Shown piece after piece: positions 10,470-62,670 of a DNA stretch of 64,000 nucleotides. The stretch is from an uncultured Clostridia bacterium. GTDB lineage: Bacteria; Bacillota; Clostridia; UBA1381. The translations under genes and the position numbers were made by a program. The stretch is from assembly GCA_947631235.1 (NCBI GenBank), contig CANRKO010000002.1, forward strand, positions 62,001 to 126,000, read 5' to 3'. How positions within the stretch are numbered: the stretch's first letter is position 1; each line of letters opens with the position of its first letter. The notes beneath the pieces were generated by a model. It saw only the letters and a list, made by a program, of their open reading frames with translations, was not told where the DNA came from and ran no database searches.

Positions 10470-11039
10470 ATGGCAACAATATTACTTAAAAGAGGACAGG
10501 CGACGGATTTAGGAAATCTCACGCTCGCGGAAGGCGAGGTCGCAATCGCGTACAACGAGGACAAAAGCACGGCGCAGCTTTACGTAGGCGGCGCGGGCGG
10601 TACAAAGATACTCGTTACGGCTGATGTTGCGGCGGCGGTAAAGACCGCGCTCGAACAGGCAAAGACGTACACGGATACCACGGTTACGGAAAAGATAGAC
10701 GCGCTCGTAAACGGTGCGCCGGGAACGCTTGACACGCTCAAGGAGATTGCGGACGCTATCGAGGAAAATCAGGACGTGGTGGACGCGATAAAATCGTCAA
10801 TTGCAAACAAGGTCGACAAAGAGGACGGCAAGGGTCTCTCCGAGGCGAATTTTACGAACGCCGAAAAGACAAAGCTTTCGGGCATTGCGAATAACGCGAA
10901 CAACTACACTCATCCCGCAAAGCACGACGCGTCAATCATAACCGAGGACACGTCGCACCGTTTTGTGACCGACGCGGAAAAAACAACGTGGAACGGTAAG
11001 CTTGACGCGAACAGCACAATCGACTGCGGAACGTTTTAA
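10470..11039 (+). CDS. Phage tail fibre protein with Mtd-like N-terminal domain
   Basis: This 189-residue protein begins with a domain like the N-terminus of the major tropism determinant (L-K-R-G-x-x-x-x-L-x-x-L-x-x-G-E), used to attach fibres to the phage tip. A helical coiled-coil region follows (about 50-110). Residues about 115-185 hold repeats with the tail-fibre signature of alternating L-S-G-I-A and N-N-Y-T-H-P motifs. The C-terminus ends STIDCGTF, close to the C-x-G-x-F endings of the preceding protein. AAGGAGG lies 10 bases before the ATG. It is part of the fibre set with the next gene, which shares its N-terminal domain. Confidence 0.8.
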   Translation: MATILLKRGQATDLGNLTLAEGEVAIAYNEDKSTAQLYVGGAGGTKILVTADVAAAVKTALEQAKTYTDTTVTEKIDALVNGAPGTLDTLKEIADAIEENQDVVDAIKSSIANKVDKEDGKGLSEANFTNAEKTKLSGIANNANNYTHPAKHDASIITEDTSHRFVTDAEKTTWNGKLDANSTIDCGTF

Positions 11040-11051
11040 AGGAGGATAAAA

Positions 11052-12521
11052 ATGGCAAACAGATTACAGTTAAGGCGCGGTATTAAGTCAAAACTGCCGT
11101 CTACGCTTGCGGTAGGCGAACCCGCGTACACGACCGACACGCACGAGCTGTTTATCGGCACGGGCAGCGGCAACGTGAACATGGGCGGCGGTCACTGGTA
11201 CACGGGTACGGATATGTCGGGTACGGGCAGCGGCAACAGCTACAGCGGCTGTCCTCTCGTGAAGGTCGGCGATATGTACCTCAACACGTCGAACGGCTAT
11301 GTGTACGAGTGTGCCACGGCAGGCAGCGGAACGACCGCGAAATGGACGTACAAAGGCTGCATAAAGGGCGCTACGGGCGCACAAGGCGCGACAGGTGCAA
11401 AAGGCGCGGACGGCGCAACAGGACCGGCAGGACCGGCGGGCGCACAAGGTCCGACCGGACCGAGGGGCGAAACGGGCGCAGCGGGTACAAACGGCAAAGA
11501 CGGTAAGGACGGCAAGGACGCGGCGGATTATGTTGTTACAAGCCAGTCGGAGCTTAATACGGCTTTAAACGCAATCCAAAACACCGGCGGTCGGATTATA
11601 CTACGGGCAGGGCAGTATAATATAAACCTTGAATCTAATTGGGGCGCACAGACTACGGCTGCGTCAAAATTCGTTTTTGAGGGTATGGGCGCAAAAACTG
11701 AGGTCTCATTTTATTACGAGGTGACCGAAGCTGCGGCAAACAAAAAGCTGCCGCATTTTACGTTCAGAGACATGGATGTACAGCTACATAACCAAACGCA
11801 AGATAACCTCATAATCGGATTTGAATATTTCCCGTCGTATCTGTTTGAAAATTGCGACATATCCGGTGACGGCTCAACCGAGTTGCTGGAAAATTTTAAT
11901 CATTGTCTGATAATCGGCGGCTCGGTTAATATCTACAACCCCTCCGCACAAGAGAAGAGTGGTTGCTACTCAGGTTTCTTTTTTGGCAACACCTTGCGCT
12001 TTGCCGGATGTAACATTGTACTGGACAGCGGCAGCGATACGTATAAATCGGGATATGACCTGAATTTATCGTATGGTATTCAGGGCAGTATGTTTATGGA
12101 TGATTGTTATGTTACGACCAAAGGTAACCAAAAGATAAATATCACGAACGGTCAAAATAGTATAATTGCAAATAGCCGCATTATACTCCACAGCGACAAG
12201 GCGTCGATATGCCATTACGACACATTCACATCGCCCGAAGGTACGTTTACGGGTAACTACGTCGAATACTACGCGACATATATGCAGTTTGGCACAATAT
12301 CCGGCAACCGGTTCGAACATAAAGCGGAGGGGTCGGCATCGGGGAATAAGATTATATTGCAGTGTCCGACGTGTATGACCGGCAATCATTTTACGGGCGG
12401 CGCGGCATATATAGACGGCATGAACAAGAAACACATCATTGACCGCAATCTGCACGACGACGGTCTGACTGTCGCGAATGCGGCGTCGGGCAGCATCAAC
12501 ACAACCAACCTGCAGTATTAA
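11052..12521 (+). CDS. Phage receptor-binding fibre: Mtd-like, collagen-like and beta-helix domains
   Basis: This 489-residue protein combines three modules. Residues 1-40 resemble the Mtd N-terminal attachment domain (L-Q-L-R-R-G, then A-V-G-E-P-A-Y). Residues 106-156 are 17 uninterrupted Gly-X-Y triplets, a collagen-like triple helix. Residues about 165-480 look like a right-handed beta helix with Asn/Gly-rich turns (I-I-L-R-A-G-Q-Y-N-I-N and later ladders), the fold used by phage depolymerases and pectate-lyase-like spikes. It is probably the host-recognition spike, and may cleave a surface glycan. I cannot assign a catalytic residue. AAGGAGG lies 7 bases before the ATG, only 12 bases after the previous gene. 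Confidence 0.8.
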   Translation: MANRLQLRRGIKSKLPSTLAVGEPAYTTDTHELFIGTGSGNVNMGGGHWYTGTDMSGTGSGNSYSGCPLVKVGDMYLNTSNGYVYECATAGSGTTAKWTYKGCIKGATGAQGATGAKGADGATGPAGPAGAQGPTGPRGETGAAGTNGKDGKDGKDAADYVVTSQSELNTALNAIQNTGGRIILRAGQYNINLESNWGAQTTAASKFVFEGMGAKTEVSFYYEVTEAAANKKLPHFTFRDMDVQLHNQTQDNLIIGFEYFPSYLFENCDISGDGSTELLENFNHCLIIGGSVNIYNPSAQEKSGCYSGFFFGNTLRFAGCNIVLDSGSDTYKSGYDLNLSYGIQGSMFMDDCYVTTKGNQKINITNGQNSIIANSRIILHSDKASICHYDTFTSPEGTFTGNYVEYYATYMQFGTISGNRFEHKAEGSASGNKIILQCPTCMTGNHFTGGAAYIDGMNKKHIIDRNLHDDGLTVANAASGSINTTNLQY

Positions 12522-32520: not shown

Positions 32521-32556
32521 AAAAAGGCTTGAAACCATGGGGTTTCAAGCCTTTTT
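32521..32556. terminator. Bidirectional terminator after trpG
   Basis: A perfect 16-base stem AAAAAGGCTTGAAACC with an ATGG loop and a T run. It also serves the reverse-strand channel operon ending at 32561. Confidence 0.95.
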
Positions 32557-32560
32557 AATT

Positions 32561-33166
32561 TTATTTTTTATACTCTTTGAACGGAGATTTCCATGTGAGT
32601 TTTTCCTTGTGATACTCATTTTTAAATCTTGCGGGCGTAACCTTGTACAAAATCGGCAGCAGTACGCACAGCACGGCTGTGTCTATGACTTTAAGCACTC
32701 CCGCGCCGAACGCCGCCGAGAAGAACACGGGAACGCTGCGCGACCTTGCCGCACTGAAAAATACAAGCTCCCAGCCGCTGTTGGGCGCGCCCGTGCGCCA
32801 CATCGAAATAGCCGCCGACAAAAACGACGCCGCGACCACGTAAATAACGGCTGCAAGCGGCAGCTTTTTCCATGAGACCCTGCCGTCCTTGCGCAGCATA
32901 AGTCCGAACAAAAGCGAGCATAGAGCCGCTACCGCGTAATAAACTATGGCGTTGCTCGCGTAGACTGCGCTCGACTCCAAAAGGTTTGTGAGGTAGGCTA
33001 TAATAAGCCCCGCCGCCGGTTCGAGCGTTACGGCTGCGTACACCGTTCCTATGGTGTCGAACCACGCGGGGATATGCAAAATATGCGCGAGCCAGTAAAG
33101 ACCGAGATTGAGGACTATTCCGGCGAGCATGATAACGAGATACTTTTGCAGCGTCTTATTTTTCAT
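32561..33166 (-). CDS. Membrane protein resembling an ECF-transporter S component (distal copy)
   Basis: This 201-residue protein has about five or six membrane segments and a basic C-terminal tail. Near residue 33 the sequence I-P-A-W-F-D-T-I-G-T-V-Y-A-A resembles the W-L-D-x-x-G motif of ECF-transporter S components, and the last helix (V-I-D-T-A-V-L-C-V-L-L-P-I-L-Y-K) matches their usual final segment. It is clearly related to the product at 33911-34639 by these same two motifs. No ATPase or T component lies nearby. It is the last gene of the four-gene channel operon and overlaps the K+ channel gene by 11 bases. Its role is unknown; a solute-binding or channel-accessory function is inference. 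Confidence 0.8.
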   Translation of the reverse strand: MKNKTLQKYLVIMLAGIVLNLGLYWLAHILHIPAWFDTIGTVYAAVTLEPAAGLIIAYLTNLLESSAVYASNAIVYYAVAALCSLLFGLMLRKDGRVSWKKLPLAAVIYVVAASFLSAAISMWRTGAPNSGWELVFFSAARSRSVPVFFSAAFGAGVLKVIDTAVLCVLLPILYKVTPARFKNEYHKEKLTWKSPFKEYKK

Positions 33167-33914
33167 CGGAAACGTCCTCCTTTTCCCCGTTCTCTTTGTT
33201 TTCCTTGTCCTTCTCCTTTTCGGCCAAGTCCTTGTTAAGCTCCTCCATAAAGCCCGCCGTAACGATACCCGCGGGCATCGCGATTACGGCTATTCCGAGA
33301 AGTGATGAAACCATGCTTATGAACCGCCCTATCTGCGTCGCGGGGTAAATATCGCCGTAGCCGACGGTCGTGAGGGCCGTCGTCGCCCAGTAGAGCGCGT
33401 CAAAGAACGTCGGGAAATTATCCGCCGGCTCATGCACGAACATCACAAGAGCCGATATGAATATGTACGCTATCGCGATTATAAGCACCGAGCAAAGCGT
33501 TTTTGCCTGACTGCGGAACACGTTCATAACGCGTCTGCAGCTTTGCGAGTACTGCGCAAGCTTTACAAGGCGCAGCACCCTCAAAATCATAAAGGTCGGC
33601 GGCAGAAGTCCCAGCGTCGGGAGTATACCCGCAATATCCATAATCGCCAGCGGCGTGAACGGATAGATGAAAAACGCCCATATAGAGTGGTTTTTCATTC
33701 TGAAATCGTGTGTTATCCACCTCAAAATATAGTCGAAAAACAGTATGTAAACCGTGATTGATTCAAGTATTTGCATCCACGTCGAAAGCGCGCCGCGGAA
33801 CATCATCGGCACAACGCTCGCGATTGCCACAACCATTATGAACCAGTCGTAGTACACGGTCGAGCGCCCCTTTGTTTTCTGCCCGTAAATGACGTTACTT
33901 ATCTGTTCTCTCAT
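33156..33914 (-). CDS. Six-helix voltage-gated-type potassium channel
   Basis: This 252-residue channel has S1-S6 helices and the selectivity filter T-T-V-G-Y-G-D at residues 182-188, diagnostic of K+ channels. The S4 segment (about 106-128) carries R112, R115 and K118, with R127 and R128 after it, so voltage sensing is plausible. S6 holds a Gly/Pro hinge (I-A-M-P-A-G). The last 30 residues are a highly charged Lys/Glu tail, perhaps a tetramerising coiled coil; there is no RCK/TrkA domain. The ATG overlaps the upstream gene by four bases. The channel is embedded between two ECF-S-like proteins and downstream of a ligand-gated-channel-like protein, a combination I do not know from described systems. 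Confidence 0.92.
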   Translation of the reverse strand: MREQISNVIYGQKTKGRSTVYYDWFIMVVAIASVVPMMFRGALSTWMQILESITVYILFFDYILRWITHDFRMKNHSIWAFFIYPFTPLAIMDIAGILPTLGLLPPTFMILRVLRLVKLAQYSQSCRRVMNVFRSQAKTLCSVLIIAIAYIFISALVMFVHEPADNFPTFFDALYWATTALTTVGYGDIYPATQIGRFISMVSSLLGIAVIAMPAGIVTAGFMEELNKDLAEKEKDKENKENGEKEDVSDEK

Positions 33915-34639
33915 TTTACCGCCTCCGCGCTTTTCTTCTGCTCGATTTTTTCCTGAGCATTCTGCATGAGCTTGTCTTTTTCGTCCTGAAATTCCCCGTC
34001 CTCTTTAGTTTTCACGAACACGGCGACGGGGATTTTCTTGTTTATGGCGAAGAAATCGGCAATTTTCTGCGGCATGACCTTAAATATCAGGAATATAACC
34101 GCGATAATGATTGCCTTGTCCACAATGCTCGCGGCCATATACGACACCGTTCCGGCTATAAGTCCGTGTACGCCGAGCGATGTCATAAGACCGTGAATGA
34201 GCGTGGTTATAATATTTGTAAACGTCGATTCTCCGTAAAGCGCCATACTTGTCGCGACCGCCGTTAAAGTATCGACCAAAATCAGCACCGCGAACGCGAA
34301 CGGAACGGTTTTCTTGTTCCCGAAAAATCCCAGACGGAACATCGCCCCGAATATCGCAGCCATTATCGCGAACATCAGTATCAGCAAAAACGAGTGAACG
34401 GAAAAGCCGTTCACGGCAATGCTTAATATAAGCCACAGCGCCGACACTGCCGCGCCGAAAACGGGACCGTCCACAGCCGCCGCGAAAAACGGCCCGAAAC
34501 CGTCGAGCCACAGCGGCAGATACGGATTTGCCGATATGTATTTCTGTATAAGCAGGCTCAGCACGGCGAGAATAACGAGCAAAACTATTCTTCCGCGGCT
34601 CCATTTTACCGCGACAAGACCGATAGCATAATCTTTCAT
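33911..34639 (-). CDS. Membrane protein resembling an ECF-transporter S component (proximal copy)
   Basis: This 242-residue protein has about six membrane segments, an N-terminal W-S-R-G-R stretch and a charged Lys/Glu/Gln C-terminal tail (about 200-242). The motif L-P-L-W-L-D-G-F-G-P-F-F-A-A near residues 42-55 and the closing helix V-D-K-A-I-I-I-A-V-I-F-L-I-F-K-V-M-P link it to ECF S components and to the paralogue at 32561. The ATG at 34639 is preceded by GGAAAGGAG and GGAG. An in-frame ATG at 34666, overlapping the preceding stop, would add nine residues and is an alternative. Function is unknown; the operon context suggests a role with the two channels. Confidence 0.8.
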   Translation of the reverse strand: MKDYAIGLVAVKWSRGRIVLLVILAVLSLLIQKYISANPYLPLWLDGFGPFFAAAVDGPVFGAAVSALWLILSIAVNGFSVHSFLLILMFAIMAAIFGAMFRLGFFGNKKTVPFAFAVLILVDTLTAVATSMALYGESTFTNIITTLIHGLMTSLGVHGLIAGTVSYMAASIVDKAIIIAVIFLIFKVMPQKIADFFAINKKIPVAVFVKTKEDGEFQDEKDKLMQNAQEKIEQKKSAEAVK

Positions 34640-34662
34640 AACTCCAATTCTCCTTTCCGAAA

Positions 34663-35748
34663 TCATACCGTCGCCATATACGCCGACAGCGGCATGAGTA
34701 TATGACCGAGTATAACTATAAACATCAGCGTAAAGCTCATTACGCGTCCGAACAGCGCGGCGAACTGATTATCGCCGTGCTTGTTCCGTATTCGGTTTAT
34801 GTTGATTATGGTAAGCGCGCCGGCTATTATGGTAAATATACCCCACGCGTTGACATATTCGAGCAAGCCTATTTCGAGCGCGTCGGGAAGAAGGTTCGCG
34901 CCGACCATGATGTTCGAAACCGTACCGAAAAGAGCCGCCGGTATCATGCTCAGCGGGTCTACGCGGTGGTAAGTGCAGAGGAACATCGTGATAAATACCC
35001 ACAGCGACGTTCCGAACAGCGCGATAAAGCACTTCGCGTACAGACCCAGACCACTCCTGTTGATTTCAAACTGCGTCATAAACTCCGATGTAATCTCGTC
35101 GTCGCTGTTTTTACCGTACGACGTATCGTATACCTGCGTAAATTCAGCCGTGTCGTGGCGCACGATATAAAAGCCCGGTATGCCTATATTCGGATTGTAC
35201 GAGCTGTTGTCGCCGTCCTTTTCGAGAATGACCCTTTTCGCGGGCATATTCGGCTCTATGTAGAAACGCATCTGATGCGACTCAAGCGGGAAACGCACCG
35301 TCCAGAAATCGTTGTTCACCGTCACGTCGAGACGGCAGCGCTGGTAGTGCCAGCCGTTTATCATCGTGTCCTCCATGACCTCAAGCTTGTTCGTTGTGCC
35401 GTTGTAGATATGGAAGTTGTTCACCATGTCAAGGTCGTCGTCGCCCTTCCAGCGGAACCATATGCTGCACACGACGCGGTAATAGCTGCTGCGCAGAGCG
35501 ACCTCCTTGACGCTTTCGAGATACGTACCCGTGAACACACGCGTCGTCTCCGCGCCTACCTGCTGCGCGCCTATAGCCTCCGCCTCGCGATCAAGCATAT
35601 TTTTCTGCCAGTAATACTCCTCGGCTGACTTGTCCCGGTAGAGCGTGTACGTGGTGTAGCATATGTAACCGCCGCCTATGATTACGAAACCGAGGAACCA
35701 CGCGAGCAGCTTTTTTATCTGCCACTTTTCAAAAACTATACGTTTCAT
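34663..35748 (-). CDS. Pentameric ligand-gated ion channel-like membrane protein
   Basis: This 361-residue protein opens with a membrane anchor (residues 14-34). An extracellular beta-rich domain (about 75-232) carries F-P-L-E-S-H-Q near 153-159, placed like the F-P-F-D-x-Q block of pentameric ligand-gated channels, and ends with F-E-I-N-R just before the first pore-domain helix, as in that family. Four helices follow at about 237-258, 265-286, 297-320 and 335-357. The second ends in L-L-P and is followed by Y-x-N-A-W, again like M2-M3 of these channels. Cys94 and Cys138 may form a disulfide. The extra N-terminal anchor is unusual; bacterial members normally have a signal peptide. The similarity is distant and needs a profile or structure test. 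It leads a four-gene operon. Confidence 0.65.
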   Translation of the reverse strand: MKRIVFEKWQIKKLLAWFLGFVIIGGGYICYTTYTLYRDKSAEEYYWQKNMLDREAEAIGAQQVGAETTRVFTGTYLESVKEVALRSSYYRVVCSIWFRWKGDDDLDMVNNFHIYNGTTNKLEVMEDTMINGWHYQRCRLDVTVNNDFWTVRFPLESHQMRFYIEPNMPAKRVILEKDGDNSSYNPNIGIPGFYIVRHDTAEFTQVYDTSYGKNSDDEITSEFMTQFEINRSGLGLYAKCFIALFGTSLWVFITMFLCTYHRVDPLSMIPAALFGTVSNIMVGANLLPDALEIGLLEYVNAWGIFTIIAGALTIININRIRNKHGDNQFAALFGRVMSFTLMFIVILGHILMPLSAYMATV

Positions 35749-35810: not shown

Positions 35811-35839
35811 ATTATAACAAATTTTTACATATTTTGCAA
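35811..35839 (-). promoter_or_regulatory. Promoter of the channel operon
   Basis: Reverse strand TTGCAA (35834-35839), 17 bases, TATAAT (35811-35816). The leader is about 55 bases. A GGGGGG ribosome-like tract lies about 22 bases from the ATG, with a GCGC hairpin between that could bring it closer. Confidence 0.7.
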
Positions 35840-61665: not shown

Positions 61666-62670
61666 ATGGATGAAAAGAAAACGATATTTTCCGGCATACA
61701 GCCGTCGGGAAATTTAACGCTCGGCAACTACCTCGGCGCGATACGCAACTGGGTAAGCCTGCAAAACGACTACAACTGCATCTACGCGATGATGGACATG
61801 CACACGATAACGGTACGCCAGACTCCCGCGGAACTTCGGCGCAGAACGCTCGAAGTCCTCGCGCTTTACATCGCGTGCGGCATAGATCCCGAAAAGGACG
61901 TGCTGTTTATCCAGTCGCACAATCCGGCGCACGCGGAGCTTGCGTGGGTACTGAATTGCTACACGTACATGGGCGAGCTGCAGCGCATGACGCAGTTTAA
62001 GGACAAATCCGCCCGTCACGCGGAGAACATAAACGCCGGACTGTTCACGTACCCCGTGCTTATGGCTTCGGACATTCTCCTTTACCAAGCGGACTACGTT
62101 CCGGTCGGCAAGGACCAGATGCAGCACATAGAACTTTGCCGCGACGTTGCGCAGCGTTTCAACGCCATTTACGGCGACGTGTTCACCATTCCCGAGGGGC
62201 TTTTGCCGAAGGTGGGCGCTAACATAATGAGTTTGCAGAATCCGACGAAGAAAATGTCAAAATCCGACCCGAACCCGAAGGCGTACATTTCGATGATGGA
62301 CGATATGAATGTAATCGCGAAGAAAATAAAAAGCGCGGTCACGGACAGCGAGGGCGTTATCGAGTACCGTGAGGGCGACGAGACAAAGGCGGGCGTGAAC
62401 AACCTTCTTTCAATCATGTCGGCTGTGACGGGACGCAAAATTGACGATATAGTAAAGGACTACAGCGGCAAGGGCTACGGCGATTTCAAGAGCGATGTTG
62501 CCGACGCTGTTGTGGAGTGCATAAAACCGATACGCGCGGAGTACGACAGAATAATAGCGGACAAGAAATATCTTACGGACATATGCGAAAAGGGCGCGGA
62601 AACGGCTTACAAAATCGCGCGCAGGACACTTAGCAAGGTATACAAAAAAGTAGGCTTTGTGATGAGATAA
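61666..62670 (+). CDS. trpS: Tryptophanyl-tRNA synthetase
   Basis: TrpRS (334 residues) charges tRNA-Trp. S-G-I-Q-P-S-G-N-L-T-L-G-N-Y near 6-19 is the class I first motif in its Trp form, and K-K-M-S-K-S-D-P-N near 196-204 is KMSKS. G-K-D-Q-M-Q-H-I-E-L-C-R-D near 147-159 is also diagnostic. Length is normal. AAAAGGAAG lies upstream of the ATG. The promoter is consensus and unregulated as far as the leader shows, unlike the trpEG operon. Confidence 0.97.
   Translation: MDEKKTIFSGIQPSGNLTLGNYLGAIRNWVSLQNDYNCIYAMMDMHTITVRQTPAELRRRTLEVLALYIACGIDPEKDVLFIQSHNPAHAELAWVLNCYTYMGELQRMTQFKDKSARHAENINAGLFTYPVLMASDILLYQADYVPVGKDQMQHIELCRDVAQRFNAIYGDVFTIPEGLLPKVGANIMSLQNPTKKMSKSDPNPKAYISMMDDMNVIAKKIKSAVTDSEGVIEYREGDETKAGVNNLLSIMSAVTGRKIDDIVKDYSGKGYGDFKSDVADAVVECIKPIRAEYDRIIADKKYLTDICEKGAETAYKIARRTLSKVYKKVGFVMR

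Follow-up and report, generated by a model that had tools for sequence, protein, structure and literature searches.

What would a bacterium do with an operon that joins a neurotransmitter-receptor-type channel to a K+ channel and to relatives of transporter subunits? We asked this of a 64,000-nucleotide stretch (hereafter, the window) of an uncultured Clostridia bacterium (assembly GCA_947631235.1, contig CANRKO010000002.1, here contig C2, forward-strand positions 62,001 to 126,000), whose genome comprises 2.09 Mb in 16 contigs and is 86% complete. Four reverse-strand open reading frames (ORFs), first described in a sequence-only reading of this DNA, were all confirmed: gene A (34663..35748, 361 residues), a divergent pentameric ligand-gated ion channel (pLGIC) subunit; gene B (33911..34639 within an ORF of 33911-34666, 242 residues from 34639), an accessory membrane protein resembling the substrate-binding (S) subunits of energy-coupling factor (ECF) transporters, paralogous to D and with a charged tail; gene C (33156..33914, 252 residues), a Kv-type K+ channel with a short charged C-terminal tail; and gene D (32561..33166, 201 residues), a membrane protein from a distinct ECF-S-like clade (PxWxDxxGT...LEPxAGL). 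The genes nearly touch or overlap, as that reading had reported: for B, a start at 34639 is closely preceded by GGAG-type sites and leaves a gap of 23 bases after A, and the B-C and C-D overlaps measure 4 and 11 bases. We propose, with confidence evenly balanced, that the operon would be a membrane unit converting small-molecule signals to ion flux, in which D would gate C, A would sense an outside ligand or ion and B would be a second sensor. The identities of the parts, the conservation of the operon, the overlap and fusion of C with D, and the co-divergence of the genes were all observed.

The operon is conserved in its core. C and D directly follow A in 29 of the 33 loci that have an A gene of at least 96 residues and readable downstream DNA (one of these, L062, has 96 residues of A left). 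The operon loci are the window, L017-L023, L047, L056-L062, L075-L079, L091-L096, L100 and L101, and the gene order is thus repeated outside the window in 28 loci, which belong to families f1, f19, f53, f54, f57 and f77 and to one unplaced genome. Left out of the 33 were a locus whose contig ends inside A (L042), a scar (L024), a C-terminal remnant (L063/L083), weak short matches in G049 (L025/L031/L011 and L035) and duplicate retrievals of a place. Seven of the operon loci carry a broken or partly deleted gene (L020-L023, L058, L061 and L062), and in L047 the contig cuts A. Homologues of A, C and D are therefore not mostly apart, and the linkage claimed by the sequence-only reading stands for these three. 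Its four-gene unit does not stand for B as an essential member: because B lies between A and C in just 11 of the 29 loci and is absent from 18, the conserved core is A-C-D and B is accessory.

Within this core, C and D are closely tied. They overlap by 4-14 bases in each of the 24 unfused loci that were measured (26 of the 29 were entered), and form a single ORF in L047 and L101. In a tree of C plus D a branch supported at 100/99 separates the two fusions, both of which are long branches; this suggests two separate fusion events. Pairwise distances across 23 loci were correlated between A and C (0.89), A and D (0.86) and C and D (0.95), and none of 2000 permutations gave values as high.

Gene C is by sequence a Kv-type K+ channel, presumably tetrameric. 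It matched Pfam Ion_trans at 1.7e-23, and its profile matched Kv2.1 and KCNQ at 1e-24 to 1e-23. The TTVGYGD filter and the S4 residues R112, R115 and K118, noticed from the letters alone, are indeed present and were invariant in 10 of 10 aligned homologues. C thus has in common with Kv/KCNQ-type channels the Ion_trans domain, the filter and an S4 charge at every third residue, but differs in having only three S4 charges, a tail that leaves no room for a large regulatory domain, and an ECF-S-like partner. In the family, operon C genes gave seven matches at 403-460 bits, with a truncated one in G024 at 248, and non-operon K+ channels scored 146-273 bits (L110-L114 and L116 in genomes lacking A, and L115, a second channel of the A-bearing G008). 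No A or S match was found near these seven non-operon channels, of which L110 sits at a contig edge. C alone was rejected as an operon marker, since related K+ channels occur in six family genomes lacking A. At L061:8738-9453 a frame change splits C in G347, its close sister L078 being intact; this may be a sequencing error or a fresh mutation.

The assignment of D and B as two ECF-S-like paralogues also held. All 15 D and B proteins matched the NCBIfam model ECF_S_CD3073 (NF045596) at E <= 1, the best at 6.7e-21, and 6 of the 15 matched Pfam ECF_trnsprt at E <= 0.01. D of the window matched ECF_S_CD3073 at 2.4e-14, but with 53.4 bits against a cut-off of 180, and B stayed below the cut-offs of both ECF_trnsprt (0.0033) and ECF_S_CD3073 (0.0039). 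Like CD3073-family S components, D is a hydrophobic protein of five to six segments with a PxWxDxxGT-like motif; it differs in having LEPxAGL where the ECF-linked relatives have GGPxxGA, in its low score, in an operon without an ECF module and in its fusion to a K+ channel in two genomes. The nearest non-operon kin of D in the tree (support 95/92) are the N-terminal regions of signalling proteins with HD domains. One such protein, L129:3218-5413 (reverse strand), has 731 residues, with a D-like ECF-S membrane domain at its N-terminus fused to an HD (HD-GYP-like) domain (HD_5, 4e-36), and also matches a response-regulator phosphodiesterase model below its cut-off; here the S-like fold appears to serve as a sensory input domain. 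Because of the C-D fusions and of these signalling kin, we favour D as a ligand-sensing partner, and thus a putative sensor or regulator, of channel C. Other relatives outside the operon adjoin EcfT and an ATP-binding cassette (ABC) ATPase (L131), adjoin a nucleoside hydrolase (L130) or stand alone (L132); L132 passes the ECF_S_CD3073 cut-off at 258 bits, and the ECF-linked L131 stays below it at 108. In L130:4358-5941 an inosine-uridine nucleoside hydrolase gene comes immediately before the CD3073-type S gene, which suggests nucleosides as the ligand of that CD3073-type family.

The same proteins could instead be working ECF substrate-binding subunits, with D (and B) importing a micronutrient through a shared EcfAA'T module and the channels balancing charge or sensing the same nutrient. 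The model matches described above speak for such import, as do a combined D and B profile that found RibU at 0.0012, EcfT elsewhere in all six operon genomes tested, and family relatives such as L131 that adjoin EcfT and an ABC ATPase. On the other hand, D reaches 53 of 180 bits and by itself found RibU at only 0.095, the operon contains neither EcfA nor EcfT, a D-K+ channel fusion is ill-suited to the docking of an S subunit on EcfT, and the tree places D with signalling input domains and not with ECF-linked proteins. We consider import unlikely. The AxxxA motif, by which ECF S components dock on EcfT, occurs in 2 of 27 D proteins, but the EcfT-adjacent relatives L124 and L125 lack it in the first helix too (by eye).

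Gene A is a pLGIC subunit by fold, by profile and through a bridging protein of Azospirillum, and probably assembles as a pentamer; the pentameric-channel-like layout seen earlier is borne out by structure prediction. The predicted structure (28-sequence alignment, pLDDT 81.4) has the fold and layout of the superfamily, with an extracellular beta-sandwich domain (residues ~65-231) followed by the four transmembrane helices M1 (235-260), M2 (269-286), M3 (295-323) and M4 (327-357), and an additional N-terminal helix (8-52). Profile searches matched a GLIC-GLRA1 chimera at 9.2e-6, a GLIC mutant at 3.8e-5 and unmutated GLIC entries at ~4e-4; GLIC and ELIC are structural models for human synaptic receptors. 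The Azospirillum protein matched A at 2e-16 and solved pLGICs at 1e-9 to 1e-5, and passes Pfam Neur_chan_LBD (30.8 vs 26 bits). A itself does not reach that gathering cut-off: of 12 A proteins one came closest, at E 0.06. A has in common with GLIC, ELIC, sTeLIC and DeCLIC the beta-sandwich with four transmembrane helices, an invariant Pro-loop proline (F153-P154 in 27/27), the pre-M1 Arg (27/27) and an Asn aligned to GLIC N239 (27/27). It differs from them in falling below Pfam detection, in its K+ channel and S-like gene partners, in the N-terminal helix, which falls outside the region aligned to the structures listed (from model residue 63-65; no search was made with the helix alone) and whose W47 is retained in 25 of 26 proteins, and in the FPxD Asp, which is found in 1 of 27 A proteins and replaced by E, G, S or N in the others (Glu156 in the window). 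The accessible part of Jaiteh 2016 (PMC4795631) describes the Pro-loop proline as absolutely conserved and Y/FPxD as the best pLGIC marker, without which sequences may escape detection; the loss of the marker from most A proteins may explain why curated models miss the A family. The hallmark of the eukaryotic Cys-loop receptors, a conserved cysteine pair bracketing the Pro loop, was not found in A7 by eye. Other assignments of A were rejected: a FixH match at 0.1 in Pfam was taken as chance, as were the weak matches among 12 A proteins to HigB_toxin (0.0035, one protein), Lig_chan (0.015, one protein) and DUF6773 (0.053, three proteins), and DUF4436, suggested by the layout, was absent from the Pfam scans of A. 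The bridging gene itself lies at L134:7647-8876 (+) on plasmid ABSP7_p1 of Azospirillum brasilense Sp 7, where the incomplete PLSDB table has no annotated feature, and its locus has the A match with neither a C nor an S match. Azospirillum megaplasmids thus carry a pLGIC gene. Among plasmids, A of the window matched seven Azospirillum records, and A of L059 matched eight Azospirillum records and one of Streptomyces.

The sequence-only reading took A for a depolarising channel, which the pore residues do not settle. The M2 residues aligned to -2' to 0' are mostly basic-V-acidic: when aligned to GLIC, 24 of 27 A proteins carry R, K or H at -2' and 26 of 27 carry Asp at 0', and the choice between cation and anion is ambiguous because the 0' Asp accompanies the basic -2'. 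An anion-selective A acting with C could release K+ together with an anion, electroneutrally, for turgor or volume control, with D sensing the cue; paired K+ and anion pathways move salt without a large change in voltage. The basic -2' speaks for this explanation, but the 0' Asp blurs it, and no flanking gene common to the clades points to osmotic control; we give salt release a small chance of being right. Mere co-transcription of membrane proteins without physical or functional coupling would fit the standalone A genes in 4 of the 33 loci and the erosion in relatives, but is very unlikely given the two C-D fusions and a gene order that stays constant, with tight overlaps, in six families and one unplaced genome.

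Signal-to-ion-flux conversion by the operon would then proceed as follows. The extracellular domain of A would sense an outside ligand or ion and A would open, which would change the membrane potential or the anion content and thereby affect C. C, a K+ channel envisaged as a tetramer with a voltage sensor reduced to three S4 charges and without a large cytoplasmic domain, would respond both to voltage and to the ligand of D. D would be an ECF-S-derived membrane receptor that binds a small molecule and sets the opening of C, a regulatory subunit of C rather than the substrate subunit of a transporter, and B may be a second sensor of the same origin, an extra input in some lineages. The outcome would be signalling or ion homeostasis. 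Of the interpretation drawn from the letters, this keeps the identities and the gene linkage, leaves a depolarising A and its electrical coupling to C as conjecture and drops the essential B; the S-like proteins were first taken as solute binders or assemblers of a complex, and D now looks more like a putative sensor or regulator acting on C.

Several observations weigh against this proposal. The fusion ORFs (444 residues in G095, 437 in G1286) come from draft assemblies, the grouping of D with HD-domain proteins rests on two signalling sequences with long branches, and the co-divergence of A, C and D may mirror vertical descent alone. Because EcfT is present elsewhere in the operon genomes, D could still serve a shared ECF module. 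A can exist without C and D, since the four standalone genes (L046 and L080-L082) have neither adjacent; two of them are second copies in the operon-bearing G095 and G886. The operon is being lost, and is thus dispensable, in several relatives. Flanks are not fully random either: in four loci (L057:10487, L100:10965, L061:7871 and L078:10126) an FGGY-kinase-like ORF is found 85-299 bases past D.

In a more specific version, which we advance tentatively and with some doubt, an ECF-S-derived receptor would be the dedicated gating subunit of a Kv-type channel and would be wired through the operon to a channel of the neurotransmitter-receptor type; the membrane potential would then be set by two chemical inputs. 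KATP channels offer an analogy: in these the K+ channel Kir6 is stably partnered with SUR, a protein derived from an ABC-type transporter. Both cases pair a K+ channel with a transporter-derived partner, the regulation of C by D being predicted; the operon differs in its channel class and in lacking nucleotide-binding domains. From the C-D fusions one would expect a K+ channel that contains its own transporter-derived receptor, of which no report was found among the open-licence papers listed.

Among the papers listed by searches of the same literature there was likewise no description of a pLGIC/K+ channel/ECF-S operon; the sequence-only reading, too, knew of no described system with this gene set. 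The part of Tasneem et al. 2004 (PMC549065) available to us places bacterial pLGICs beside PBP-II, Cache and Na+/H+ symporter genes and proposes chemoreceptor roles. Those operons likewise pair a pLGIC with a conserved, possibly small-molecule-binding neighbour, but the partners named in that part include neither a K+ channel nor an ECF-S-like protein. Neither PMC549065 nor PMC4795631 contains the stem 'clostrid' in its main text. In the portions consulted, PMC3119659 notes a decarboxylase gene adjoining ELIC, PMC11084639 proposes a future search for pLGICs co-operonic with glutamate-gated channels, and PMC4795631 states that as of 2016 a biological role was known for no pLGIC of unicellular organisms; the gene set studied here is described in none of these portions. 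Its conserved gene-level link to a K+ channel and to a sensor-like protein gives one prokaryotic pLGIC family a physiological hypothesis that is concrete and testable. If the more specific version above is true, it would be, as far as the literature searches show, the first natural prokaryotic pLGIC partner set to include another ion channel, and the gene cluster hints at an electrical-signalling unit in some anaerobic bacteria.

The occurrence of the operon within Clostridia is patchy. At E <= 0.001, A was found in 10 of 70 family genomes and in the same ten of 95 order genomes, in 10 of 391 class genomes (fragments included in the family and class counts) and in 1 of 398 phylum genomes, the source genome itself; three other orders had it in 10 of 67, 7 of 246 and 3 of 248 genomes. 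In the 67-genome order, all seven matches to operon-type D (256-283 bits; next best 89) came from genomes that also carry A; G853, G894 and G429, the remaining A-positive genomes, were without it. Six named loci in genome_contigs belong to five uncultured Clostridia bins ('Lapin') and to Clostridia bacterium INTA.CYC.029.

Loss of the operon was traced in G005, G022, G023, G024 and G240, where it is eroded; these are draft assemblies, and single cases could be errors. Judged by BLAST overlaps in L020, L022, L023 and L024, six of nine deletion junctions have 6-13 bases in common and the remaining three 0-4. G023 and G024 have a common in-frame deletion at a 12-base direct repeat in A (reverse strand, copies at 35011..35022 and 34747..34758 in the window), by which A loses most of M1 and all of M2-M3. 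A scar of ~143 bases remains of the operon in G022, and A in G025 is interrupted by a stop and a break of frame. Such a pattern points to a function that may be costly or conditional. A role in anti-phage defence was rejected, with no PADLOC match for A-D at E <= 0.01, as was a mobile origin, with no relative of A in viral_contigs (two peptide patterns, reaching close relatives only) or in phages.

The single promoter and terminator of the sequence-only reading are both matched by candidate sites on the reverse strand. A promoter-like TTGCAA-17-TATAAT with TG before the -10 (35811..35839), a consensus match only, lies ~62 bases before A, and a terminator-like hairpin with a 16-pair stem and T-runs (32521..32556) lies between D and a convergent trpG-like gene. 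With 8 promoter-like sites in the scan vs 4.7 expected, and 12 terminator-like vs 5.8, only the long hairpin is distinctive by itself and the promoter-like site is not.

Among 291 flanking ORFs of 25 loci, no gene spans the operon set. Six flank clusters link at least two clade labels and encode, by eye, ABC ATPases and PurD-like, integrase-like, FGGY-kinase-like, SDR-like (short-chain dehydrogenase/reductase) and decarboxylase-like proteins; the two clades with the FGGY-kinase-like ORF beyond D differ in its orientation, which is convergent in f53 and same-strand in f57g186. Two standalone A genes lie within a few kb of a gene for a 571-residue Na+/phosphate cotransporter-like protein (by eye; L046:2482-4197 and L082:4435-6150), which may be chance. 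In G462 the operon is flanked by a sensor kinase/response regulator-like pair and a second kinase-like ORF (L056:5752-7820 and 10810-12153, by eye).

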